A stretch of 64,000 nucleotides of DNA from Thermotoga sp. Ku-13t (GTDB taxonomy: Bacteria; Thermotogota; Thermotogae; Thermotogales; DSM-5069), in contig NZ_LNFY01000011.1 in the NCBI RefSeq assembly GCF_011057685.1, positions 1 through 64,000 on the forward strand, in the 5' to 3' direction. The notes beneath the pieces were generated by a model. That model saw nothing but the letters and a program-made list of their open reading frames with translations, ran no database searches and was not told the origin of the DNA. Every line of letters starts with the position of its first letter. The first letter of the stretch is position 1. This document shows positions 7,550 to 50,859 of this stretch, piece by piece. Both the position numbers and the translations under genes were made by a program.

Positions 7550-9261
7550 CTTCCCACCTCTTCGAAGACGCCAGAGAACCTGAAATTGACGTAGCTGATA
7601 CCACCCACGAGGAAGAAGATGAGGATCGATATGGCCGCCGCCAGGCCGAAGTCCTGACCCGTTCCTGCCTGGAACGCGAGTTTGTAGACGTACGAAATGA
7701 GTATGTCGGTGTAACCCGTGGGCGTGGTTGAACCGGGTATCGGTGGACCTCCGCCTGTGATCAGATAAATGATCGTGAAGTTGTTAAAGCTGAAAGCGAA
7801 GCTACTCACCAAAAGCGGTGCGATGACCGTCATGAGCAACGGGAAGGTTATGTTCCAGAAGCGTTTCATCTTTCCCGCTCCGTCGATCATCGCGGCTTCG
7901 TACAGTTCGTAGGGAATGCCCTGCAGCGCACCGAGTGAGATCGTCATCATGTAAGGATAGGTGAGCCAGATGTTGACGAGTAAAACTCCTACTCTCGCCC
8001 AGAAAGGATCGTTCATCCACTTTATTGCAGGAAGCCCGAGCGCTGGGAGGAGGAACTTGTTTATCACCCCGTAACTTTCGTTGAGGAGCCCGTTTCTCCA
8101 CACGAGCGCGGATATGAACACAGGTATCGCCCACGGGATGATGAGCAGAGTTCTGTAGATGTTTCTCCCTTTCAACTTCGGATCGTTAAGAACCAGAGCG
8201 AAAGGCAGACCGACGGCCAGAGACAACACGACGCTCAACAGAGCCCAGAGGAAGGTCCAGGCGAAGATCTTCAAGAACGGACCCGCGATCCTTGGGTCTC
8301 GCAAGACCCTCGCGAAGTTCTTCCATCCGACGAAGTCTATATACCCGATCAGATAGACTTCTTCACCTTTCTCGTTCACATCGTAGAAAGATCCTTCTCT
8401 TTCGATCAACGGCCTGTTCGTTCTGTTGTTCACCACTACCAACCTGGTCTTTGGCCTGTCGTTTTCCATGGTTTGAGTCAAATCGAGCCTGTAAAGTCTT
8501 TCTATCCTGAGAAAACTCCACTCTCCCGTTCGATCTATTCTCAGAGCGTATTTGTTCCCATTCGGATGAACGAAGTCAGCCTTTTGAAGATAAAACTGCG
8601 CGATGCGACTTTTGAATACGGGTGCGTTCAGTCTGAGAAATTCTTCGCGCGGCGAGTAGAAAGCCCTGTAGGTTTTTTCTCCAGAAATGATCATCCTGAT
8701 CTCTGATAGATCCTCAGACCTCGGAACGAGCTGATAATCTGTACTCTCAATAACTAAGAGTTGAGCTTCACTCAAAAGGACTTCTCTTCCCTTCCTCTTC
8801 ACGGGTACGGGCTTTTCCGCTACGAAGATTTCTCCATTTATCTTGAACAAAAGTAAAAAGTCATCGTAGATCGGTATCAGGCCGTCGTAGGCGAGGAAGA
8901 CTTTGTATTCGACGGCTTCGTCCTCGATCTGATACGTATACACCGGATCGTACAGCAACCTTTCTATAGCTTCTTCTTTGGACATGTAGTGTCCTGTCCC
9001 GTAGTTGGTGAAGGCCGTCTTCACGGTGAAGTAGATGGGATAGATGACCAGTATGGTGAGCAAAACCAGCGCCGGAGCAACGTACCTGTAAGGATAACCT
9101 TTCGGATTGAAGATGAAGAAATCGATCAGCAAAACGAGCCCCAGAAAGAATGCACCCAGAACGTAATAGGCGTTGCTGAAAAGAAAGAAGGCGATCCAGA
9201 AAAAGAAGACGTTCAAAAAACCAATGAAGCAAAGACTCAAGAACCTCTTCAGACCGATCAC
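7546..9261 (-). CDS. malF: MalF-type sugar ABC permease
   Basis: About 571 residues. An ATG at 9309 overlaps the malE stop, but that reading would run through the stem-loop; GGAGG seven bases before the GTG at 9261 makes this the likelier start. Four N-terminal hydrophobic segments, a large extracytoplasmic loop (about residues 75-285) as in MalF, then the permease core with EAA loop YEAAMIDGAGKMKRF. It pairs with MalG as the heterodimeric membrane channel for oligosaccharide import. The operon order binding protein, MalF, MalG, galactanase is one I recall from Thermotoga galactan loci. Confidence 0.92.
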   Translation of the reverse strand: MIGLKRFLSLCFIGFLNVFFFWIAFFLFSNAYYVLGAFFLGLVLLIDFFIFNPKGYPYRYVAPALVLLTILVIYPIYFTVKTAFTNYGTGHYMSKEEAIERLLYDPVYTYQIEDEAVEYKVFLAYDGLIPIYDDFLLLFKINGEIFVAEKPVPVKRKGREVLLSEAQLLVIESTDYQLVPRSEDLSEIRMIISGEKTYRAFYSPREEFLRLNAPVFKSRIAQFYLQKADFVHPNGNKYALRIDRTGEWSFLRIERLYRLDLTQTMENDRPKTRLVVVNNRTNRPLIEREGSFYDVNEKGEEVYLIGYIDFVGWKNFARVLRDPRIAGPFLKIFAWTFLWALLSVVLSLAVGLPFALVLNDPKLKGRNIYRTLLIIPWAIPVFISALVWRNGLLNESYGVINKFLLPALGLPAIKWMNDPFWARVGVLLVNIWLTYPYMMTISLGALQGIPYELYEAAMIDGAGKMKRFWNITFPLLMTVIAPLLVSSFAFSFNNFTIIYLITGGGPPIPGSTTPTGYTDILISYVYKLAFQAGTGQDFGLAAAISILIFFLVGGISYVNFRFSGVFEEVGR

Positions 9262-16429: not shown

Positions 16430-17101
16430 ATGAAAAGGTTGCACCCGATCCTCAAGGCGTTCGTTCCGATGGTGAAGGCGCTCGCTGAAACGCTGGGACC
16501 GGATTACGAGGTAGTACTGCACGACGTTTCCGATCCGGAGCACTCCGTCGTGGCCATAGAAAACGGTCATGTGACGGGCCGAAGCGTCGGTTCTCCCCTC
16601 ACGGACTTCGGACTGTACCTTTTGAGATCGTCCAGATTCAAGAACGTGGACTACGTTGCGAACTACATGACGCGGACGAGGGAAGGGAAAAAACTCCGTT
16701 CGACCACCGTGTTCATAAGGGACGAAGCCGGCGAAATCGTTGGTTTTCTCTGCATCAACTATGACACGACCAAGGCGCTCATCGTGAAGGAATTTGCGGA
16801 GCAACATTTGAAGTTTCAGAACCTCGAAGAAATCACCGGAGCGAAAGAGGAAAGATTCGCCAGTAAAGTTGAAGAGCTCCTCGCAGAGGCCATGCAGGAG
16901 GTTAAGAGTCTCACAGGAAAACCTCTCAGATTCGCCAGCAAAGAAGAGAAACTCGCCGTAATAAAGAAACTCGACGAAAAAGGATTCTTCCTGCTGAAAG
17001 GTGCTGTGGAAATGCTCGCTCAGGAACTTGGAAACTCCAAGTTCACGGTGTACGCGTATCTGAGGGAAGCGAGAAGAAAAGGTGACTCAATAATGATCTG
17101 A
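16430..17101 (+). CDS. YheO/DauR-type PAS-HTH transcriptional regulator
   Basis: 223 residues with a strong AGGAGGGG site before the ATG. Residues about 5-115 form the YheO-type PAS-like domain (GPDYEVVLHDVSDPEHSVVAIENGHVTGR and DEAGEIVGFLCINYD), and about 165-220 a C-terminal helix-turn-helix (LAQELGNSKFTVYAYLREARR). I recall that the studied member DauR controls D-arginine catabolism in Pseudomonas. It heads a ten-gene operon with a racemase and aminomutase-like enzyme, so an amino-acid inducer is a reasonable inference. Confidence 0.9.
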   Translation: MKRLHPILKAFVPMVKALAETLGPDYEVVLHDVSDPEHSVVAIENGHVTGRSVGSPLTDFGLYLLRSSRFKNVDYVANYMTRTREGKKLRSTTVFIRDEAGEIVGFLCINYDTTKALIVKEFAEQHLKFQNLEEITGAKEERFASKVEELLAEAMQEVKSLTGKPLRFASKEEKLAVIKKLDEKGFFLLKGAVEMLAQELGNSKFTVYAYLREARRKGDSIMI

Positions 17102-17115
17102 AGGAGGTGCTGACG

Positions 17116-17502
17116 GTGAAAATCATCCAAACTGATGCCGCCCCCAAGGCCATAGGACCTTACTCTCAGGCAGTGGAAGTGAACGGTTTCGTGTTCGTCT
17201 CTGGCCAGATACCGCTCGATCCAGAAACGGGACAGCTCGTCGATGGGGATATAAAGAACCAAACCAGGAGAGTTTTTGAAAACATCAAGGCGATCTTGGC
17301 TGCGGCAGGTTGTGACCTGAGCAACGTTGTCAAGGTCACGGTGTTCACCGACGACATCTCGAATTTTTCTGCCATCAACGAAGTTTATAGCGAATACTTC
17401 AGTACGCACAAACCTGCAAGATCCTTCGTGGAAGTCTCAGCACTCCCCAGAAACGCGCACGTCGAGATCGAAGTTATAGCGGCCAAGGGGGCCAAAACAT
17501 GA
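17116..17502 (+). CDS. ridA: RidA-family enamine/imine deaminase
   Basis: 128 residues from the GTG at 17116, six bases after AAGGAGGTG; the upstream GTG at 17107 lies inside that site. It shows the RidA pattern: GPYSQAVEVNGFVFVSGQIPLDP, the arginine-containing NQTRRVFENIKAIL, and PARSFVEVSALPRNAHVEIEVIA with the conserved arginine and glutamate. RidA hydrolyses reactive enamine/imine intermediates released by PLP enzymes. A PLP enzyme lies two genes downstream in the same operon, which fits a protective or dedicated deaminase role. It overlaps the next gene as ATGA. Confidence 0.93.
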   Translation: MKIIQTDAAPKAIGPYSQAVEVNGFVFVSGQIPLDPETGQLVDGDIKNQTRRVFENIKAILAAAGCDLSNVVKVTVFTDDISNFSAINEVYSEYFSTHKPARSFVEVSALPRNAHVEIEVIAAKGAKT

Positions 17503-17936
17503 AAGAACCATACTCTGCAAGGTTGCTGAATTTCGATCCGTACGCGAAGAAACAACCCGTCGTTGGCAGAATCGTGGCCGTTCTCAGAGGAAAGCTGGAA
17601 AACAGGAACCTCAACATTGTTGAGACCCGTTCGAGGGCGTTGAAAGCGGGAGAAATTCACGAGCTGATCATGACAGACGAGAAAGAAGCAACCTGTGGAA
17701 AAGTGGTGAACCGTATCGCGTACGTTGCTTTCATTGAGATCGTCCAGGGAGGCGTCGCAGTATCGAAAGATCAGGTCAGGTTGAACGACGGCAGGCTGCT
17801 TGGAACGCTCGTCGGTTTCGACGAGACACACATGCCCAACCACGAGAACATCGTGATCTACTCGGATCAGTTGATGAGCGGAGAAGAACTGGGACTTCAA
17901 ATCGGTGAGTATGTGATCTTCTACAAGGAGGGATGA
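17499..17936 (+). CDS. Conserved-looking small protein of unknown function
   Basis: 145 residues, no signal or membrane segment. The sequence looks like a beta-rich fold (repeated alternation of hydrophobic residues, for example AYVAFIEIVQGGVAV and GRLLGTLVGFDETHMPNHENIVIY given in two parts here) with a late HMPNHE motif that could bind metal or phosphate. It is wedged by ATGA overlaps between ridA and the PLP enzyme, so the three products are made together. Its size and position before the PLP enzyme invite comparison with two-subunit enzymes such as OrtA/OrtB, but I see no secure homology. Confidence 0.8.
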   Translation: MKEPYSARLLNFDPYAKKQPVVGRIVAVLRGKLENRNLNIVETRSRALKAGEIHELIMTDEKEATCGKVVNRIAYVAFIEIVQGGVAVSKDQVRLNDGRLLGTLVGFDETHMPNHENIVIYSDQLMSGEELGLQIGEYVIFYKEG

Positions 17937-19393
17937 GCATGTTCAAGTACAGATATCACCTGTACAGGCATTTGAAACAGTCTCTGCCGAAAATTCTAGA
18001 AGAAGCTAGGAAGGCTGCGGACGAGATAGGAATTCCCAAAGATTGGAGAGGGAAGTTCGGACTCACCGGCGCGATATCCGGTTGTCACGGTCTCGTGACC
18101 AGAGAGGTGGACGAAACGATCAGCGCTGTGGCACGCGAGGTGATTCCAAACAAAATCTTCGCCGATGAGATCAGAGACATCGTCAAGGATTATTACGGCG
18201 ACGATTACGATGCACTTCTGGTCAGCACCTGTGAAGCGGCGCTGTGGCTCAGCTTCGACGTGCTGGTGTCTCCGCCGTTCACAGGCAGGGGTGACAATTA
18301 CAGGACCCGCTACATCGTGCCCTACGAAAGACACCTTCACCACCATGGAGGTTACGGCAGACCTTTCCCACCACGGTACAAAGATATATTCGCAGACAGG
18401 GGCTGCACCGCGGGTGAGCTCGGTTTCTATGGAAAAAGGCTTGAAAATGTAGACGTCATCATAGTTCCCATGGCTGGCGCACGCTACACGGTGCACGGAA
18501 TAAAGTACCATCCGGCAATTCTTTTGAGCGGCGTGAAGGCAGAAGAAACCGCGAAACGAATAAGAAAAGTTGCAGAACAGCACGTAGAAATGCTCGCAGG
18601 TTTTTCATCGCTCGGGTACGACACAGTCGGTTACGGCTACGGAGAAAAAGACGAAGATGGCGTACCCATACTGCAAAAAAGGCTCGGAGAGCTCGCGGAA
18701 GAATTCAACGTGCCGTACATCGTGGACAACGCCTGGGGTGTGCCTTTCATCGGAGCTGATCCGAGAAAGATCGGCGCGTGGGTCATAACCTACAGCATGG
18801 ACAAAGCTGCGGGAGCCCCAACGTGTGGTCTGATCATTGGAAGAGAAGAGGTCATGGTGCAGATAAGAAGGGCGATGGGCACACACGGTGATAGATACGG
18901 TACGCCGTCGAGCTACGGTAAGGCCGCGTACGTGACATTCGACCCGGGCAAGGAAGCTCTGGCAGGGGCCATCGCCGCTCTGAAAGCTCTGAGGAACAAG
19001 GCTGACAAGTTCAAAAGGAACGTCGACAGACTCTACGAAATCACTGTGGAAGAATTCTCCAACCTCGATGCTCGCATCAAACACATCTTCAGAATCTCCA
19101 AGAGTTACAACTCGGGTGCCGTGGAAATCAACTACGACGATTGCTGGGAAAAAGGCGTACCGTTCCCGATCTTCCCCATTGAGGACATGTACGCGGGCAC
19201 GAATATACTCCAGATCGGTACCGATGCGATGGGCATTATTCAAACGATCGCGTACGATGGGAACATATTCATCTCACTCGGGCTTGGCACGACGGATGAA
19301 AATGGTGATATCATTGAAGACAAAACAAGGCTCGCGGTCAGAGGTCTCGTCAAGCTCATAGAGATCGTCGCTAAATATTCCAATGTCCTGTGA
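17933..19393 (+). CDS. PLP-dependent fold-type I enzyme, substrate unknown
   Basis: 486 residues with the hallmarks of the aspartate-aminotransferase fold: the pair LLVSTCEAALW as cofactor-phosphate site, D265 in PYIVDNAWGVPF, and the Schiff-base lysine K291 in ITYSMDKAAGAPTCG. A histidine-rich stretch (ERHLHHHGGYGRPF, about 132-145) in the N-terminal third is unusual. The overall shape recalls SelA/SepSecS-like or lyase relatives rather than ordinary aminotransferases. Its ATG overlaps the preceding stop. In the operon it is the only PLP fold-type I enzyme and so the likely carbon-carbon or carbon-nitrogen cleaving step. Reaction and substrate are not determinable here. Confidence 0.85.
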   Translation: MSMFKYRYHLYRHLKQSLPKILEEARKAADEIGIPKDWRGKFGLTGAISGCHGLVTREVDETISAVAREVIPNKIFADEIRDIVKDYYGDDYDALLVSTCEAALWLSFDVLVSPPFTGRGDNYRTRYIVPYERHLHHHGGYGRPFPPRYKDIFADRGCTAGELGFYGKRLENVDVIIVPMAGARYTVHGIKYHPAILLSGVKAEETAKRIRKVAEQHVEMLAGFSSLGYDTVGYGYGEKDEDGVPILQKRLGELAEEFNVPYIVDNAWGVPFIGADPRKIGAWVITYSMDKAAGAPTCGLIIGREEVMVQIRRAMGTHGDRYGTPSSYGKAAYVTFDPGKEALAGAIAALKALRNKADKFKRNVDRLYEITVEEFSNLDARIKHIFRISKSYNSGAVEINYDDCWEKGVPFPIFPIEDMYAGTNILQIGTDAMGIIQTIAYDGNIFISLGLGTTDENGDIIEDKTRLAVRGLVKLIEIVAKYSNVL

Positions 19394-19405
19394 TGGGGTG
19401 ATCCT

Positions 19406-20704
19406 ATGGCGAGGGCACCAAGGGTAGTTGTGGTCGGAGGAGGGTGGGGTGGTTGTGCGGCCGCCGCGGCCGCACGTAAGGCTGGAGCTGAGGTCATCCT
19501 CATCGAAAGGACGGACATGTTGCTCGGCACGGGCCTGGTTGGAGGCATCTTTAGAAACAATGGCAGGTTCACGGCCGCCGAAGAGATGCTGGAAATGGGG
19601 GCAGACATCTTCAGCGTGATGGACAGGTGCGCCATCCACAAGAACGTTGAATTTCCTGGCCACAAGCACGCAAGTCTGTACAGCGTCTACAAGATCGAGC
19701 CCGCGATTCGAGAGTACCTCACCAACCTTGGTGTTCAGATCCTCACGAACGCACGCGCCACAGACGTGGCGAAGGAAGGCAACAGGATCGTTTGTGTCGT
19801 GATCGAGAAGCATGAACCGATCCACGGAGATGCGTTCGTTGACGCAACGGGCACTTCAGCGGTGCCGAGCAACTGCACGAAGTACGGTAACGGTTGTGCC
19901 ATGTGCATTCTCAGGTGCCACAGTTTCGGTCCGAGAATCAGCATCACGACGAAGGTTGGCGTGGAAGAGTGGGTCGGTAAACAGCCCAATGGCAGCGTTG
20001 GCGCCATGAGTGGGTCTTGTAAACTCGTCAAGGATTCTATTGATCCGGGTATCGTGAAAGAGCTCGAAGAGAAAGGTTGCGCGCTCGTACCAGTACCTTC
20101 TAAAGTGAGAGAAGAAGAAGAAGAAAAGCTTTTGAGCATGAAGGCGTGTCAGCAGTATGCACTACCCGAGTATGTAGAAAATCTGGTTCTGCTCGATACG
20201 GGTCCTGTGAAGCTGATGACTCCTTTTTTCCCACTCGAACAGCTTCGAAAGATCCCGGGAATGGAAAAGGCCCGCTACGAAGATCCCATCGCTGGCGGGA
20301 AGGGTAACTCCATGAGGTACTTCGGTTTTGCCAACTGTACGCCCGAACTGCAGGCGATAGGCCCGGTTGACAATCTGTTCTGTGCCGGTGAAAAGGCCGG
20401 GGCGATGGTGGGACACACCGAGGCGATCGTCACCGGTACGCTGGCGGGTCACAACGCGGTGAGGAAAGCTGTCGGTGAGAAATTGCTCAGATATCCTGAT
20501 GAACTTGCGGTTGGAGACTTCGTCAACCACGTGATCGAAGAGATGAAAAAAGAGGAAGGTCGTCAGTACAAGTACACCTTCTCAGGTTCGATCTATTTCA
20601 AGCGCATGGTCCAGAAAGGTCTCTACACGACCGACATTGAACAGATCAAGAAAAGAGTGCATGAAGCCAATATGAGCAACATCTTCAACACCAAACTGGT
20701 GTGA
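19406..20704 (+). CDS. FAD-dependent oxidoreductase with cysteine cluster
   Basis: 432 residues. The N-terminus has the dinucleotide fold VVVGGGWGGCAAAAAARKAGAEV with a distal acid in LIERTD, and the C-terminal FAD-ribityl segment is LFCAGEKAGAMVGHTEAIVTG, the type found in GidA/TrmFO-like and related flavoproteins. A central block CTKYGNGCAMCILRC holds four cysteines within 15 residues, suited to an iron-sulphur or zinc site or a redox disulphide. It starts 12 nt after the PLP enzyme gene. In context it may oxidise an amine or amino-ketone intermediate; this is inference. Confidence 0.85.
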   Translation: MARAPRVVVVGGGWGGCAAAAAARKAGAEVILIERTDMLLGTGLVGGIFRNNGRFTAAEEMLEMGADIFSVMDRCAIHKNVEFPGHKHASLYSVYKIEPAIREYLTNLGVQILTNARATDVAKEGNRIVCVVIEKHEPIHGDAFVDATGTSAVPSNCTKYGNGCAMCILRCHSFGPRISITTKVGVEEWVGKQPNGSVGAMSGSCKLVKDSIDPGIVKELEEKGCALVPVPSKVREEEEEKLLSMKACQQYALPEYVENLVLLDTGPVKLMTPFFPLEQLRKIPGMEKARYEDPIAGGKGNSMRYFGFANCTPELQAIGPVDNLFCAGEKAGAMVGHTEAIVTGTLAGHNAVRKAVGEKLLRYPDELAVGDFVNHVIEEMKKEEGRQYKYTFSGSIYFKRMVQKGLYTTDIEQIKKRVHEANMSNIFNTKLV

Positions 20705-20719
20705 GGGGGTGGCGTTCGC

Positions 20720-22093
20720 GTGGTGGAGTTGACGCTGGCTCACTGGCTGTACCTCGTCTTCATGGTATTGGTAGTCGTGACCATGTTTCTGCGAAAAGAC
20801 ACACCACTGATCTGTCTGCTCGGAGCACTGCTCATCGGCTGGGCAGTCACAAAATCGTTCATCGGAGCCATCCAGTCTGTGTTCAATGCGATCGTCGTCG
20901 CAGGTGTGGAACTGCTCGGTATCGTGGTCGTCATCTCGCTCATGGTGGCGCTCTCGAAGCAGATGGAGAAGAGTGGAGCCGCAGCTGTGCTGATCAGAAC
21001 GCTCGGCAAACCGATCAAAGGCCCGAGGTCCGCGTTCTGGTTCGTGGGCATCATCACGGCGATCCTCGCACTGTTCATCTGGCCCACGCCTTCCGTAGCA
21101 CTGATAGGTAGCCTGCTCGTTCCCGTGGCCGTCAGCGCTGGTCTTTCTCCAGTCGGGGCCGGTGTGGCAATCGCGATGTTCGCTTACGGTGTGTCTCTCA
21201 CAACAGACTTTGTCATTCAGGGTGCGCCAACACTGACTGCGAAAGCTGCGGGGATAGGCGTTGGGGAAGTCATGGTCGCGATGGTGCCTCTGATCATCGC
21301 CTGGGCCGTGGTGACGATACCACTCGCGTATTTTTGGACCATGAGGGCGAACAGGAACTACGATCCGCGCAAGGACATCGAGCTGTTTGGAGAAAGCGTC
21401 ATGAAGACAAAGAGTGAAGAGTTCAGCACATTTGCGAAAGTGGAAGCAGTGGTGGTTGCCCTCGCCTTTTTGATCGACATCGTCCTGATGCTCGCACTGA
21501 AACTGCGCGGGGGTGATGCGACGGCTCTGCTCGGCGGTACTGCGGCAATGTTGCTGTTCGTGTTCACGCTCCTGCAGTACAAAGGAGAAGGCCTTGAGAT
21601 CGGAGTCGATTTCCTCAGGGACGGTTTCATGTTCGGCGTCAAGATCTTCGCACCTGTTTTCATCATCGCTGCCATGTTCTACATGGGCAGTGGCGCTGCG
21701 AAACAAATCTTCGGTGATGCGGGAAGACCCCTGCTCTTCGATCTGGCCAACGCGCTCGCACAGAAAGTACCCCTGAACAAGTACGCTGTCGCTCCGATGC
21801 AGGCAATAATTGGAGCGATCACGGGTCTTGATGGTTCTGGCTTTTCAGGTCTTCCACTCGTAGGAACGCTCGCCGGTGGTCTGGCACCCGTGGCGAACGT
21901 GAAGACATCGGTTATGGCCGCACTCGGTCAACTCACGGCGGTCAACTGCGGTGGAGGAACGATCGTTCCATGGGCCCTGATCGCCGTTGCAGCTGTCTGC
22001 AAGACGAAGCCTGAAGAGATCGCGAGAAAGAACTTCGTTCCAGTGATCCTCGGTTACGTGGCTGCCACGATAGTAGCGATGATCCTCATGTGA
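20720..22093 (+). CDS. Ion-coupled transporter, IT/NhaC-GntP-like
   Basis: 457 residues with about 12 hydrophobic segments and start at GTG 20720 after GGGGGTGG. Two similar halves are visible, each with a small-residue-rich re-entrant stretch (IWPTPSVALIGSLLVPVAVSAG split at the middle, and DGSGFSGLPLVGTLAGG), the architecture of the ion-transporter superfamily that includes NhaC, GntP and dicarboxylate carriers. Ornithine and lysine fermentation clusters of clostridia carry NhaC-type genes, so an amino-acid carrier or exchanger would fit. The substrate cannot be read from the sequence. Confidence 0.85.
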   Translation: MVELTLAHWLYLVFMVLVVVTMFLRKDTPLICLLGALLIGWAVTKSFIGAIQSVFNAIVVAGVELLGIVVVISLMVALSKQMEKSGAAAVLIRTLGKPIKGPRSAFWFVGIITAILALFIWPTPSVALIGSLLVPVAVSAGLSPVGAGVAIAMFAYGVSLTTDFVIQGAPTLTAKAAGIGVGEVMVAMVPLIIAWAVVTIPLAYFWTMRANRNYDPRKDIELFGESVMKTKSEEFSTFAKVEAVVVALAFLIDIVLMLALKLRGGDATALLGGTAAMLLFVFTLLQYKGEGLEIGVDFLRDGFMFGVKIFAPVFIIAAMFYMGSGAAKQIFGDAGRPLLFDLANALAQKVPLNKYAVAPMQAIIGAITGLDGSGFSGLPLVGTLAGGLAPVANVKTSVMAALGQLTAVNCGGGTIVPWALIAVAAVCKTKPEEIARKNFVPVILGYVAATIVAMILM

Positions 22094-22100
22094 AACATGA

Positions 22101-22120
22101 GGGGGCGCAAAAGCGTCCCC
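22101..22120 (+). terminator. Stem-loop inside the amino-acid operon
   Basis: GGGGGCGC pairs with GCGTCCCC (one G-U pair) around AAAA, seven bases after the transporter stop. Only a short CCTTCTT follows, so it is more likely a processing or partial-termination element than a full stop. Confidence 0.5.
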
Positions 22121-22139
22121 CCTTCTTGGGGGCTGGACT

Positions 22140-22976
22140 GTGAAGATAAGGTTCTTCAAGATGAACGGCGCGGGGAACGATTTCATCGTCATAGACAACA
22201 GAGAGAACGTGCTCGCAGATTTCGATATAAGCTATTTTGTTCGCATGGTGTGCCGTCGGGGTAAATCCATCGGTGCGGATGGGCTCATGTTGCTCGAACC
22301 TTCAGAAACCGTGGACTTCAAAATGAGATACTTCAACAGCGATGGTTCTGAAGGGGAGATGTGTGGCAACGGAGCCCGGTGCATCGCGAGGTTTGCGAAT
22401 CTGATCGGTGTTGCTGGTGAGCGTATGCGTTTTGAAACCATCTCCGGGATACACGAAGCGGAAATTTTGGGCGAAGAAGTGCGCATCATGTTTCCAAACC
22501 TCAGCCTGCACGACTTCGAATTCTTTCAGAAACGAGATTTCGGCTTTGGAACTGTTGAGTACCATTTCGGCACGGTCGGAGTACCACACACGGTGATTTT
22601 CAAAGACGCCGTCGAATCGATGGAGGACGAGATCTTTCTGAGATGGGGAAGAAAGATAAGGTATTCCTTGGACGTGTTTCCGAAGGGGACAAACGTGAAC
22701 TTCGTCCAGGTCGTGGGAAAATCCAGAATAATCGTGAGAACCTACGAACGCGGCGTTGAGAATGAAACGCTCGCCTGCGGGACTGGTTCGATCGCCTCGA
22801 GCATCGTTTCCTTCCTCACGAACAAGGTCGAACCACCCGTGAGTGTGAAGGTCAAGGGTGGGGAGCTGAAGGTCGGTTTTGAACGGCACGGCGACGAGTT
22901 CAGAAACGTTTATCTTCAAGGAGATGCACGCGTTGTCGCTGAAGGTTACATCCTGCCAGACGCGTGGAAAGAATGA
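22140..22976 (+). CDS. DapF-type PLP-independent amino-acid racemase/epimerase
   Basis: 278 residues from a GTG start. All DapF hallmarks are present: MNGAGNDF at 8-15, the catalytic cysteine C75 in EGEMCGNGARC and the second catalytic cysteine C213 in ACGTGSIAS. The classical member epimerises LL- to meso-diaminopimelate. Here there is no lysine-biosynthetic gene nearby, while the next genes encode an aminomutase-like enzyme of a family whose members act on D-ornithine or D/L-lysine, so I infer a catabolic racemase. It could still be the cell's diaminopimelate epimerase if no other copy exists. Confidence 0.9.
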   Translation: MKIRFFKMNGAGNDFIVIDNRENVLADFDISYFVRMVCRRGKSIGADGLMLLEPSETVDFKMRYFNSDGSEGEMCGNGARCIARFANLIGVAGERMRFETISGIHEAEILGEEVRIMFPNLSLHDFEFFQKRDFGFGTVEYHFGTVGVPHTVIFKDAVESMEDEIFLRWGRKIRYSLDVFPKGTNVNFVQVVGKSRIIVRTYERGVENETLACGTGSIASSIVSFLTNKVEPPVSVKVKGGELKVGFERHGDEFRNVYLQGDARVVAEGYILPDAWKE

Positions 22977-23002
22977 ACCCGCTCGAAAGTGAGGTGGGCT
23001 TA

Positions 23003-23230
23003 ATGATAGACAGGATCATCGACGCGTTCGATGTGGAAACCACTTTGCTGGCCAAAAGCGAAGAAGAAGCGAAGAACATCGCCGTTCAGTACTTCAAATC
23101 CCTCGGGTTCAACGACGTCGACGTGGTGTTCGTCGAGCACAGCAATTTTGCTGCCAGGATCCGCCTGCGCGTTTATGTGTTCAGACCGGGTGACAAATAC
23201 GCCTGGCTCGCTGGAGGCGATACGGAATGA
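23003..23230 (+). CDS. Small OAM-dimer-like subunit of an aminomutase
   Basis: 75 residues from the ATG at 23003, which has GAGGTGG at proper spacing; an ATG at 22964 inside the racemase gene lacks one. The alternation of helix (AKSEEEAKNIAVQYFKSLGF) and strand (NDVDVVFVEHS, ARIRLRVYVF) matches what I recall of the dimerisation segment preceding the B12 domain in OraE/KamE. In those proteins a nearby lysine (K629 in OraE) holds PLP; here the equivalent stretch has K18 one place earlier, followed by glutamates. Its stop overlaps the ATG of the mutase gene. It is a separate polypeptide rather than part of the large subunit, which is unusual. Confidence 0.65.
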   Translation: MIDRIIDAFDVETTLLAKSEEEAKNIAVQYFKSLGFNDVDVVFVEHSNFAARIRLRVYVFRPGDKYAWLAGGDTE

Positions 23231-25005
23231 AATTCGTGCTCTTCCCACTCGATCCTGTTCACGATGTGGCGTTGAAGATGTTGAACAGAGAACTCTTGAA
23301 GAGGAGATATCAAACCATACTGTTACCACCCGACACGAAAATGGAAGAAGTTGTCGAGCTGTGCCAGAAGGAAAATCCAGATTTCATCATGGTGAGCAGA
23401 ACAGTCGGCTACGGTGCCGCCGAATTGCTGGCCAGGTTCATAGACATGCTGGACGCGGCGGGTTTGAGAAAGAAATGCAAGGTCGTGGTTGGTGGCAAAG
23501 CGATCACGAAAGAGCTCGCTGCGGAACTGGGTTACGATGCGGGCTTCGGTGATAAAACGAACTGGGAAGAAGTCATCGCTTTCGTCGAAGGGAGAAAAGT
23601 GCAAGAATCGAAAAGCAGGATTGTTAAAACCAAACGCGACATAACACAGGGTTATTCGTACAGAGTCCACTACAGCGCGTTCAAAGACCTGCTCGAGAAG
23701 ATAACGGATCAGATAATCGACTGGGCAAGAGACAGGACCAGCCCCGGAATCGAGCGAGCAAAGATGAGAGAGAAGATGTTGCAGGGCGAAGATCTCCTGG
23801 ATGACTATTTAAAGCTGTGCGATGATACGGTTGTTTCTTATTTCAAAAAGAACACGCTTCCAAAGAAAGTGAGGTTCATAACAGAAGGAGAGAAGAAAAA
23901 GTTCGATCGACTTGTTCGCGAAACCAGATTCGAAGGAAAAATCCTGCGCCACAGCTTCGATAGACCTCTCGTTTTCGTTCAGTACGGAACGGGCTGTCCC
24001 TTCATGGATGCGATGCACATAAAGATCAGCGAAGCGTGGGGCGCCGATGGGGTTCTTCATTTCGATCCTTCCTGGGGTGCAAGGTGCGAAGGTTTACTCG
24101 AAGGTCTGCTGGCGCACGAGGAAGATGGATCGATCATAACCTTCGAAAACCTGAAGCTCATAAAGTCAGCGCTGAATGATTCCACACTCTGGTGTGTCAG
24201 GGCGCATAGGGGTCTAAACACGCCAGAAACCGTGCTGCTCGCAGCGCATGCAAAGGCCGATCTGACCAAAATAAACATGGTCTATGGTTCTCTGAACGGT
24301 GGTACCGACCCGGAGAGGCTCACTGTCGATGGAGTGTACGCCATAAAGCTGGCGGCCAGATACAACCTTCCTTACGACATACCGACCAACGAAGAGCTCG
24401 GGGGCGTACCCGCACACAAGGCGCTCGCCGGCATGCTCGTGGTGGCGTACCTCGGAGTGAAATTGAACGCGAAACCCATTCTGAAGCCCTTGTTCTGTTA
24501 TTCACCAGACGTGATGATCAACGATTACATGAAGGACAACTACATCGATTACAACGCAGCGAAAGTAATCGCACTGAGGCGCATCATCGACGCACCGATC
24601 TGGCCAGGTGAACCCATCGGTTTCATGACGCACACCGAAGACAGGGTTCAGTCTGCCATGACGACGGCCCTGCACGCCGCGCTCGCAAGTTCCCTTGGGC
24701 TCGATGCCATAACCATCGCTTCCACCGACGAAGCTTATGCGCGCGGTGCGATCACGGTGAGCGCGCGTATCGATACCCTCAGGGCGATCGCGGAAGCCTT
24801 CAGATTCTTCGGACGGGCGAAGATAGAACCGACAAAACAGGCAGAAGAGTTCGCAGAAAGGATCGTTGAAGGTGTGTACGAAACGCTTAAGAAGGTTGCG
24901 GAAAGGGAAGACTTTGTGGCGTCCCTGCACGAAGGTCTGTTCGGAACACGCGAAGAAGGTGCGAACCCAGGTAGAGCAGGAAGAGGCACGGTGAGAAAGT
25001 GCTGA
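23227..25005 (+). CDS. Adenosylcobalamin-dependent aminomutase-like protein with N-terminal B12 domain
   Basis: 592 residues. Residues 1-124 look like the Rossmann B12 domain of OraE/KamE: a histidine H12 at the place of the DxHxxG ligand (here PVHDVA), SRTVG at 57-61, VVGG at 87-90 and DAGFG at 104-108, a string I recall in that family. Residues about 240-545 are barrel-like (AWGADGVLH, EGLLEGLL, MTHTEDRVQSAMTTALHAALASS given here in part), comparable to the KamD/OraE catalytic barrel or glutamate mutase E. In known enzymes the B12 domain is C-terminal or separate; here it leads. It overlaps the small subunit gene (ATGA) and the P-loop gene. Confidence 0.72.
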   Translation: MKFVLFPLDPVHDVALKMLNRELLKRRYQTILLPPDTKMEEVVELCQKENPDFIMVSRTVGYGAAELLARFIDMLDAAGLRKKCKVVVGGKAITKELAAELGYDAGFGDKTNWEEVIAFVEGRKVQESKSRIVKTKRDITQGYSYRVHYSAFKDLLEKITDQIIDWARDRTSPGIERAKMREKMLQGEDLLDDYLKLCDDTVVSYFKKNTLPKKVRFITEGEKKKFDRLVRETRFEGKILRHSFDRPLVFVQYGTGCPFMDAMHIKISEAWGADGVLHFDPSWGARCEGLLEGLLAHEEDGSIITFENLKLIKSALNDSTLWCVRAHRGLNTPETVLLAAHAKADLTKINMVYGSLNGGTDPERLTVDGVYAIKLAARYNLPYDIPTNEELGGVPAHKALAGMLVVAYLGVKLNAKPILKPLFCYSPDVMINDYMKDNYIDYNAAKVIALRRIIDAPIWPGEPIGFMTHTEDRVQSAMTTALHAALASSLGLDAITIASTDEAYARGAITVSARIDTLRAIAEAFRFFGRAKIEPTKQAEEFAERIVEGVYETLKKVAEREDFVASLHEGLFGTREEGANPGRAGRGTVRKC

Positions 25006-25889
25006 GCATCGGCGTTCTGGGAACCGCGAAGAACACGGGAAAAACGACCACGGTGAACGCGTTGCTGAAATGCCTCGCTGGAAAGTCTCTGGCCATCACG
25101 AGCATCGGTTTCGATGGCGAAGATCTCGACCACATCACGGGCCTTCCAAAACCCAAAGTCGTGGTGGAAGAAGGGACCGTGGTGGCCACGAACGAACAGG
25201 TTGCAAAACATTCAACGGCGAAGCTGCAGCTGCTGAGAAAGCTCAACATCGCAACGGCCTTTGGACCAGTCTGCCTCTACAAGGTCAGACAGTCCGGCAC
25301 CGTGGTGCTCGTCGGTCCAAACAACAGCGAAGACCTCCTCGTGCTTAAGGATGTTTTGAAGAGTGAACAGATAGAAATTTTCCTGGTGGATGGGGCGATA
25401 AACCGCGTCGTACCGCTCCAGCATGTAGAGTTCGTTATTCTCGCACTCGGTGCTTCCAGATCTACCAGCATCGCTGTTCTGCTCACCGAAGCGAGAGTCA
25501 TTGCGAAAGCTCTGAGATTACCCTTAAGTGAAGACGACAGAAAAGTGATCGAGGGCCTGGTCAGTCAGGACAAACTGAAATCTCTCTGGAATGAACGCAT
25601 CACGGTGGAGTCTCCCATGCACCTTTTGCTCGCTGAAGATCTTGCAGGTCTTGAACGTTTGTTGGACAAGATCGACATTGCCGTGCTGAGAAGGCCAGAA
25701 TTGATCTGCGTGACGATCAATCCATACTATCCAGTGAGACGCATGGAAGGTTTCGCCCTTGACCACGTGGATCTGACAGAACTCTCAAGGACCATAGAAC
25801 AGGAGTTGAACGTACCGTGTCTGGACGTGATGAAAGAAGAAGAAAGATTGTGCAGGATCGTTGAAGAGAAAATTCGTGGCTTGAAATAA
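24999..25889 (+). CDS. P-loop NTPase, candidate mutase reactivase
   Basis: 296 residues, GTG start at 24999 inside the 3' end of the mutase gene. It opens with a Walker A, GTAKNTGKTT (K15), continues with IGFDGEDLDHITGLPKP and a region with LVGPNNSEDLLVLKDVL, and ends with a mixed alpha/beta domain. There is no transporter or signature motif. B12 aminomutases inactivate readily and their clusters often encode ATP-dependent reactivating factors (for example KamB/KamC near lysine 5,6-aminomutase), so a reactivase or cofactor-loading role is my inference from position. It ends the operon at a strong terminator. Confidence 0.75.
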   Translation: MLSIGVLGTAKNTGKTTTVNALLKCLAGKSLAITSIGFDGEDLDHITGLPKPKVVVEEGTVVATNEQVAKHSTAKLQLLRKLNIATAFGPVCLYKVRQSGTVVLVGPNNSEDLLVLKDVLKSEQIEIFLVDGAINRVVPLQHVEFVILALGASRSTSIAVLLTEARVIAKALRLPLSEDDRKVIEGLVSQDKLKSLWNERITVESPMHLLLAEDLAGLERLLDKIDIAVLRRPELICVTINPYYPVRRMEGFALDHVDLTELSRTIEQELNVPCLDVMKEEERLCRIVEEKIRGLK

Positions 25890-25892
25890 AAA

Positions 25893-25912
25893 GCCGGCGC
25901 ACCGGCGCCGGC
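25893..25912. terminator. Bidirectional terminator, end of amino-acid operon and GH16 gene
   Basis: GCCGGCGC pairs with GCGCCGGC around ACCG; CTCTTTTT follows on the plus strand and CTTTTTATTTC on the minus strand. It lies 3 nt after the P-loop gene and 23 nt beyond the convergent GH16 stop. Confidence 0.88.
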
Positions 25913-25935: not shown

Positions 25936-27816
25936 TCATCGGGCTTCCTCCAGGGCGAAATCGTCAAAATACACCTTTCCGGTCCTTGGATTGTTCGTCT
26001 TTCCAAGCTCGATCGAGAGGTTGGCCACGGGATAGTCCGCGTTGAAAGTGAACACGAGTTCGAAGGTCTGCCAATCCATCGTCAGATCATAGTTCTGAAC
26101 TGCGTAAAGTGTGTAGTTTGTCGGGTGCAGGAATTTCACGTTTATATCCCTCGGGTTTTCCGCTCTGGCTTTGAAGGTGAGCCTGTACGTTTTTCCTTTA
26201 GAGAGACCCACCCACTGGTTGAACTGCACGTGCCAGCTCTCCCATCCTGTGTCCGTCACTTCCACGACGGCGAACCTGTTCTTTTCTTCCGTTTCGATAC
26301 TCACTGAAGCTCTTCCTCCCATACCGCACGGTGAACCGTACCACAGGAACCAATCGTCGGGCCAGTTCTGCTGATCGTTGGTCAGCGGATAATCGAAGCT
26401 ACCGTTATCGATGGTCTCCATACTCACGCCTTTGTACACCCTGATGTAATCCACGTACATCTTCTGCGGGAAGGTCGTGGTCTCATCCGGATACCCAGGC
26501 CAGTAACCACCAACCGCGACGTTCATTATGATGAAGAACGGATGATCGAACACCCAATCTCCGGGGACCTCCGTTCTGGTTATCTGGGAGAACTTCACAT
26601 CGTCCACGTACCATTTGATTCCAAGAGGATCCCATTCGACCGCGAAGATGTGAAAGTCTTCGGTGAAATCGCCCGTTGAAAGTGTATAACTTCCACCTTT
26701 TCCACCAGCTCCCGAATAACCTGGTCCATGTATCGTACCGTAGACTTTGTTCGTTTCATGACCAAGGTACTCCATCACATCGATTTCTCCGCACGTGGGC
26801 CACCCCACTTCCGTTATGTTCTCTCCGAGCATCCAGAGGGCCGGCCATATGCCTTTACCCCTTGGGAGTTTGGCCCTGAACTCTATTCTTCCGAACTTCA
26901 CACTGAACTTTCCCTGTGTTTTCATCCTCGCAGAAGTGTAGCTGTACGTTCCGTACTCGTCCTGCGCGGTCTCTTTCTTCGCTTCGATGACCAGAACCCT
27001 GTTCTCTACGTAAGCGTTCTCTTTCTTGTAATATTCCAGCTCGGCGTTGCCCCAGCCTGGAATTCCTTGGGCATGACCGTTACCGACTTCTAAACTCCAC
27101 ACGTTCTCGTTTATGATGTCCCCGTCGAAGTTCTCCTTCCACACCAGTTCGTACCAGTACTTCTCTCCAAGGGCCGGTGGAGGTGCGGGGGGTTCGGCCT
27201 GTCCTATTTTGACCAGCTTCACGTTGTCTATGTACACGGTTCCGTCATCCTGACCCAGCTGGAATTCAAACCTCGCCCTATCATCGGTCTCGTTCCTCAT
27301 AGTGAATTCAAAGCTGTAAGTCCTCCTTTCGGTGGTGATATCGATCGCGTACCCTCCAGACTGATCCACCGGTCGTCCACTCGGTGGTGGATTGTAAGGT
27401 ATCCATCCTTTCAACGCGGTCGCACCGATCTTCACTCCAATTCTTCTGTTCTTGCTCGCCCAAGCCTCGAACTCCACTCTGTAGATTCCCAGATACTCCA
27501 CCGTGATCGGCGATTGTAACACCTGCACCGACCACGAATTCGGTCCTGCGTAGGTGATGGAAACTTTCAAAACTCCATTCTCCACGACTCCAACCGCCTG
27601 TGCCCCATCTCCAGTTCTGAACAACCACGTTCCTTGGGTGTCAAAGTCCCCCGTGGGGATCTCAGGATACGATTCACTTATGTACAGAATGCTCTGTGAG
27701 AAATCTCCGTTGTGGAGGATGTTGCCATCAGGCGTTTGTTGAGACTGTCCAAGTCCGCAACTTATGAGAAAGCACATCAGCGCCAGCACCAAGAAAGCTC
27801 TCCTCACAATGTGCAT
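25936..27816 (-). CDS. Secreted laminarinase (GH16) with two CBM4-type modules
   Basis: 626 residues. A signal peptide with a possible lipobox (CFLISCG) is followed by a jelly-roll module (about 30-200, NILHNGDFSQS start), the GH16 catalytic domain (about 215-460) with the ExDxxE motif in GEIDVMEYLGHE, WPALWMLGE and the aromatic HIFAVEWDP, and a second jelly-roll (about 475-626, IDNGSFDYPLTND start). The three-domain order and length match the laminarinase of Thermotoga that cuts beta-1,3-glucan. ATG 27816 sits almost on top of AAAGGGGGG, so the GTG at 27807 is an equally good start. It lies 35 nt after the hydrolase gene, probably in one transcript. Confidence 0.93.
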   Translation of the reverse strand: MHIVRRAFLVLALMCFLISCGLGQSQQTPDGNILHNGDFSQSILYISESYPEIPTGDFDTQGTWLFRTGDGAQAVGVVENGVLKVSITYAGPNSWSVQVLQSPITVEYLGIYRVEFEAWASKNRRIGVKIGATALKGWIPYNPPPSGRPVDQSGGYAIDITTERRTYSFEFTMRNETDDRARFEFQLGQDDGTVYIDNVKLVKIGQAEPPAPPPALGEKYWYELVWKENFDGDIINENVWSLEVGNGHAQGIPGWGNAELEYYKKENAYVENRVLVIEAKKETAQDEYGTYSYTSARMKTQGKFSVKFGRIEFRAKLPRGKGIWPALWMLGENITEVGWPTCGEIDVMEYLGHETNKVYGTIHGPGYSGAGGKGGSYTLSTGDFTEDFHIFAVEWDPLGIKWYVDDVKFSQITRTEVPGDWVFDHPFFIIMNVAVGGYWPGYPDETTTFPQKMYVDYIRVYKGVSMETIDNGSFDYPLTNDQQNWPDDWFLWYGSPCGMGGRASVSIETEEKNRFAVVEVTDTGWESWHVQFNQWVGLSKGKTYRLTFKARAENPRDINVKFLHPTNYTLYAVQNYDLTMDWQTFELVFTFNADYPVANLSIELGKTNNPRTGKVYFDDFALEEAR

Positions 27817-50780: not shown

Positions 50781-50859
50781 TGGCGGGGACGACGGGATTT
50801 GAACCCGCGACCACCGGTGTGACAGACCGGCATGCTAAACCAGGCTGCACCACGTCCCC
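50781..50859 (-). tRNA. tRNA-Asp (anticodon GTC)
   Basis: A full cloverleaf on the minus strand: acceptor GGGGACG with CGTCCCC, anticodon arm CCGGT-CTGTCAC-ACCGG giving GTC, T arm CGGG-TTCAAAT-CCCG, discriminator G and an encoded CCA (50783-50781). It stands alone between a protein gene and a divergent diguanylate cyclase gene. Confidence 0.95.

Follow-up and report, generated by a model that had tools for sequence, protein, structure and literature searches.

To our knowledge, only two enzymes that shift an amine with the combined use of B12 and PLP are well known, lysine 5,6-aminomutase (5,6-LAM; KamD and KamE) and D-ornithine 4,5-aminomutase (4,5-OAM; OraS and OraE). In 5,6-LAM, PLP forms an aldimine with K144-beta. 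Its phosphate is bound by R184, R268, S189 and the backbone of residues 187-189, while S238 contacts the ring nitrogen, Y263 stacks and N299 contacts the phenolic oxygen (PMC3958899). The stretch of Thermotoga sp. Ku-13t DNA analysed here (64,000 nucleotides; hereafter, the window) carries two adjacent genes that appear to encode a rearranged relative of these enzymes, referred to below as the small subunit and the mutase.

The small subunit gene (23003-23230, plus strand like the rest of its operon) starts at an ATG preceded by a good ribosome site, GAGGTGG, and yields 75 amino acids; a GTG at 22964 is a possible alternative start giving 88. HHalign aligns the whole protein with KamE residues 10-85 (E 1.4e-7) at a probability of 94%, whereas two control profiles reached 0.4% and 0.6%; PF16554 (OAM_dimer) matches it at E 0.008, below cut-off. 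The earlier note, made from the letters of the window, had described a separate 75-residue dimerisation-like protein beside a barrel protein; both reading frames are there, and the small one corresponds to the N-terminal dimerisation domain of KamE as a protein of its own.

The mutase, 592 amino acids from ATG 23227 to 25005, overlaps the small gene by ATGA. Its residues 1-125 (23227-23601) make up a B12-binding Rossmann domain with an invariant DPVHD, in which His12 is the predicted cobalt ligand. The domain matches PF02310 (E 3.6e-10), as do the corresponding domains of all 57 family members, and the KamE model NF052385 covers residues 37-123 (E 7.6e-16). An AF2 model of the protein, computed from 57 orthologues, has a mean pLDDT of 90.4, and Foldseek overlays its N-terminal domain on the cobalamin Rossmann domains of 1y80, 1i9c and 1xrs_B with an rmsd of about 2 Å (2.1 Å for 1i9c); the failed overlay that the earlier note had named as a refutation did not occur. 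The placement of the B12 domain at the N-terminus of the barrel protein, also put forward in the earlier note, is thus agreed upon by PF02310, NF052385, HHalign and AF2/Foldseek. The remainder of the chain (23671-25005) was assigned with HHalign and Foldseek to a KamD-like helical segment (residues ~149-240) and a TIM barrel (~245-560) with a C-terminal tail, the PLP ligands being replaced. No Pfam model specific to the barrel matched above cut-off, and PF09043 (KamD-type) matches 2 of the 57 members, weakly. Against the KamD of the same genome, the barrel gave HHalign probabilities of 88-92% (E 3e-6 to 1e-7) over 424 columns at 23% identity. Foldseek ranks KamD (1xrs_A) first for the whole model (E 2e-16), ornithine aminomutase next (8e-11), and then acyl-CoA mutases, with methylmalonyl-CoA and isobutyryl-CoA mutases at E 4e-9 to 1e-4. 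By sequence comparison and modelling, the two proteins together account for every part of KamDE: KamE is divided in two, and its B12-binding half has been joined to the front of KamD.

This arrangement is shared by a family of 57 loci, nine from Thermotogota and 48 from Bacillota, at 52-97% identity. The small gene is found at 56 of them, nearly always directly upstream of the mutase gene, which rules out a local oddity or a frameshift as the source of the split. The reversal of domain order claimed in the earlier note likewise stands; as for the order it gave for OraE and KamE, alignments to 1xrs give barrel, dimer domain and B12 domain for OraE. The mutase is present in 9 of 103 Thermotogota genomes, in 39 of the 398 Bacillota genomes sampled (roughly one in ten) and in 34 of 154 genomes from the class of a Fermentithermobacillaceae MAG. 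All Thermotogota mutases fall into one clade with 100% support (SH-aLRT), which is consistent with one transfer between the phyla. The mutase thus belongs to a previously unlabelled, widely conserved family for which neither Pfam nor NCBIfam supplies a name above cut-off. Literature searches with DUF6917 (see below), ornithine aminomutase plus reactivase, and related aminomutase terms, which covered few subscription journals, returned no title or abstract describing it.

In the window, the two genes are part of an operon extending from 16430 to 25889. What is probably its first gene encodes a YheO/DauR-type PAS regulator (16430-17101; PF08348 1e-44, PF13309 1.4e-20); DauR-type regulators govern D-arginine use. 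Next come a RidA-family enamine/imine deaminase of 131 amino acids (17107-17502; an orthologue in a neighbouring genome matches PF01042 at 4.7e-49 and TIGR00004 at 1.9e-56), a DUF6917 protein of 145 (17499-17936; PF21891 at C11:17541-17921, E 2.6e-45) and a SelA/SepCysS-like fold-type I PLP enzyme of 486, with D265 and K291 invariant in the alignment (17933-19393). The AF2 model of this last protein (pLDDT 87.9) matches SepCysS 3wkr (6e-13), Cap15 and SelA in Foldseek, a search that returned the broad fold-type I class and no clue to the substrate. They are followed by a GidA/TrmFO-like FAD-dependent oxidoreductase (432 amino acids, 19406-20704; PF01134 1.4e-32), an integral membrane transporter (457 amino acids, 20720-22093) for which the profile search gave no family above cut-off (CitMHS, E 0.012, lies below it), and a DapF-type epimerase (22140-22976; TIGR00652 E 3e-70). 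Downstream of the small subunit and mutase genes, a KamB-type P-loop reactivase of 296 amino acids (24999-25889) matches NF052386 (reactivase_KamB) at E 7.4e-54; its 182.9 bits, against a cut-off of 210, make it a clear KamB relative below the equivalog line. Directly after it lies a strong intrinsic terminator-like hairpin (25893-25912, plus strand; 8 GC pairs and a T-run). A search for a cobalamin riboswitch in the window and at seven Bacillota loci came up empty; Rfam matches the window just once, at a tRNA (50784-50859, minus strand). The 626-aa protein encoded beyond the hairpin on the minus strand (25936-27816) seems from its sequence to be a glycoside hydrolase of family 16 with carbohydrate-binding repeats.

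Much of this neighbourhood is conserved. Leaving the window aside, the KamB-type reactivase lies near the mutase at 55 of 56 loci, the SelA-like enzyme at 42, the FAD enzyme at 36 and the transporter at 20; a neighbour cluster labelled PncB, which mixes RluB and PncB by chaining, was set aside. RidA and DUF6917 also recur alongside the SelA-like and FAD enzymes, as does an FCD-family regulator in Bacillota. The tightest association is that of DUF6917, which occurs in all 39 mutase-positive genomes and in one negative genome among the 398 from Bacillota (Fisher 2e-53, a value that ignores phylogeny), and in all nine positive genomes and one negative among 61 from Thermotogota (a count that ignores relatedness). 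In both exceptional genomes a contig end falls inside the operon or next to it. DUF6917 is therefore a near-perfect marker of the mutase, with the pattern repeated in two phyla. This family (PF21891), which has no assigned function and for which we found no papers in searches that covered few subscription journals, makes a good candidate for functional study.

What the operon is for is suggested by three Pseudothermotoga-like genomes in which it is enlarged (L031, L032, L034, L171-L173). The additional genes encode a DAP dehydrogenase (TIGR01921 1.9e-88), an Asp/Glu-racemase-family protein, a TAXI-TRAP transporter and a multi-subunit amino-acid dehydrogenase of the sarcosine/glycine-oxidase type. 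Together with DapF, these dehydrogenases, the racemase-family protein and the transporter suggest that the operon serves to take up and degrade an amino acid, perhaps in its D-form. Diaminopimelate, which DapF might bring to mind as the substrate, was not accepted: DapF is a single PF01678 locus, the only copy found in the genome, and lies near the mutase in just 2 of the 48 Bacillota loci. Separately, in some Bacillota, cysteine-rich proteins are encoded beside the mutase operon (L116:8199-8687, L128:11160-12023, L132:7881-8657); they resemble the N-terminal region of a sulfide/dihydroorotate dehydrogenase-like FAD/NAD protein (NF004470, L116:13527-14501).

Other distinctive properties of the family concern the two cofactor sites, whose residues were placed by alignment to 1xrs and counted over the 57 members, with 16 Thermotogota KamDE for comparison. 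His12 is invariant (57/57), aligns with the base-off histidine H133-beta and, in an alignment to 1y80, falls on the histidine of its HDIG motif. Two residues before it, an invariant Pro takes the place of the usual Asp, and an invariant Asp is found at position -3; position +3 is Gly in 48 members and Ala in nine. The earlier note was right that the motif is altered; the form it gave, xVHDVA, should read DPVHDxG/A. On the PLP side, the position of K144-beta, eleven residues after the histidine (residue 23 here), is occupied by Leu in 53 members and Phe in four, against Lys in 16 of 16 KamE. The equivalent of R184 is Asp in all 57 (D280), that of S238 is Arg in all 57 (R328) and that of R268 is Ala or Gly (residue 358). 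The G187-S189 phosphate loop, S189 included, is deleted; N299 faces a gap in a stretch where the alignment is itself gapped and uncertain. Only Tyr263, the stacking residue, is kept (Y353, 57/57). Every PLP ligand tested is kept in the 16 Thermotogota KamDE. The PLP site known from lysine and ornithine aminomutases thus appears from these alignments to be gone, and not merely shifted; the displacement of the PLP lysine proposed in the earlier note is unproven, the lysine at +11 being absent from all 57 members. Its broader suggestion, a new subfamily with altered cofactor binding, is borne out by the 57 orthologues, the near-universal split, the invariant B12 histidine and the loss of nearly all PLP ligands. 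The likeliest reading of the alignments is that the mutase would not use PLP.

These considerations lead us to propose, with a probability of roughly 60%, that the mutase is an adenosylcobalamin radical mutase that belongs to the lineage of 5,6-LAM, probably does without PLP and works in an undescribed amino-acid catabolic pathway. The break in KamE falls between its dimerisation domain, now the small subunit, and its B12 domain, now fused before the KamD barrel. In the scheme we envision, His12 would bind cobalt in the base-off state and the B12 domain would move across the barrel in the manner of 5,6-LAM, allowing the 5'-deoxyadenosyl radical to abstract a hydrogen from the substrate. Arg, His, Asp and Glu are frequent among the invariant residues at the barrel strand ends, and the substrate might be held at the barrel mouth by the invariant candidates D280, R286, R325, H327, R328, K348, R364, E389, E390 and R473 while undergoing a PLP-independent 1,2-shift. 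Damaged cobalamin would be replaced by the KamB-type protein encoded next door and RidA would remove an imine by-product, the mutase acting together with RidA, DUF6917, the SelA-like PLP enzyme and the FAD enzyme on an amino acid, perhaps a D-form. A more ambitious version is tentative, and we would place it somewhat short of even odds: that a PLP-free mutase arose from a PLP-dependent aminomutase whose domains were permuted and whose cofactor pocket was completely rebuilt, and catalyses a new radical rearrangement in a DUF6917-marked pathway of Bacillota and Thermotogota.

A PLP-free enzyme descended from a PLP-dependent ancestor would be unusual, and PLP could be bound in another way. The mutase might still be a PLP- and B12-dependent aminomutase, its PLP lysine having moved to K17 or K348 and the phosphate being held by a rebuilt loop. 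Three lysines are the same in all 57 members and could serve: K17 (in the B12 domain, five residues after the histidine), K348 (at the end of barrel strand 4) and K446. In addition, a phosphate could be bound by loop 354-361, which is rich in Gly and Thr, Y353 retains the stacking position, and the KamB reactivase and RidA suit amine chemistry. However, this proposal must accommodate an invariant Asp for R184, an invariant Arg for S238, Gly or Ala for R268 and a missing phosphate loop, whereas OraE, likewise distant from KamD, has kept all those ligands; we regard it as a serious but unlikely contender. It is also conceivable that a carbon group, not an amine, migrates, so that an enzyme of KamDE-type ancestry would act like glutamate mutase; this would be a special case of the PLP-free radical mutase that we favour. 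The Rossmann-type B12 domain shared with 1i9c, the arginine-rich set of invariant residues and the lost PLP ligands would fit, and one of the 57 members shows a weak match to MutE (PF06368, E 0.001). Compared with a small MutE profile (4 sequences), however, the barrel reaches an HHalign probability of 0.2%, which led us to reject membership in the glutamate mutase family and speaks for a likeness of chemistry at most. We consider a carbon shift quite doubtful.

It is very improbable that the gene pair encodes an ordinary lysine 5,6- or ornithine 4,5-aminomutase in rearranged form. The fold and the neighbouring reactivase are those expected, but the scores fall far below the cut-offs of the established models (58.5 bits versus 280 for KamE, NF052385; 26 versus 800 for OraE, NF040743) and the PLP site is lost. 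Moreover, the same genome carries a classical KamD/KamE pair on contig C9 (L027:6625-8193 and 8190-8933) with the equivalents of H133 and K144 intact, and the rearranged mutase must therefore be a separate enzyme. No obvious lysine-fermentation genes lie right beside that pair. Finally, a degenerate, non-catalytic relic, which the lost cofactor ligands might evoke, can be dismissed as next to impossible, since about 100 positions are invariant across 57 sequences from two phyla (mean column identity 63%) and the operon partners are conserved, which shows the mutase to be under strong purifying selection.

Should the mutase indeed be PLP-free, it would illustrate the way in which a cofactor can be lost from a radical aminomutase and put to the test the need for PLP in such shifts. 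The whole pathway is approachable, with DUF6917, the SelA-like enzyme, the FAD enzyme and the mutase taken as one unit, and proteins from a thermophile relative should purify easily.

Set beside the described systems, the mutase most resembles 5,6-LAM, with which it shares the dimerisation domain, the Rossmann domain, the helical segment and TIM barrel, the putative base-off histidine, the stacking tyrosine and a KamB-type reactivase. It differs in the split of KamE, the position of the B12 domain N-terminal to the barrel, DPVHD in place of DxHxxG, the absence of the PLP lysine and of nearly every other PLP ligand, and the gene neighbourhood. With 4,5-OAM it has in common the superfamily fold and a single chain that carries both B12 domain and barrel and is accompanied by a small partner. 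In OraE, however, the PLP site is intact and the dimer domain lies between barrel and B12 domain; here the dimer domain is separate and the B12 domain precedes the barrel. OraS, moreover, resembles the helical segment of the mutase and not its small subunit, as indicated by a weak match of PF16552 (OraS family) to residues 150-179. Glutamate mutase (MutS and MutE) is likewise an adenosylcobalamin mutase that works without PLP, and its Rossmann domain is similar, but its B12 domain is a separate chain and the MutE barrel has no detectable sequence relation. Methylmalonyl-CoA and isobutyryl-CoA mutases also combine a B12 Rossmann domain with a TIM barrel, but the barrel is of a different family and the substrates are acyl-CoAs. 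The mutase represents a third branch of the 5,6-LAM/4,5-OAM lineage.
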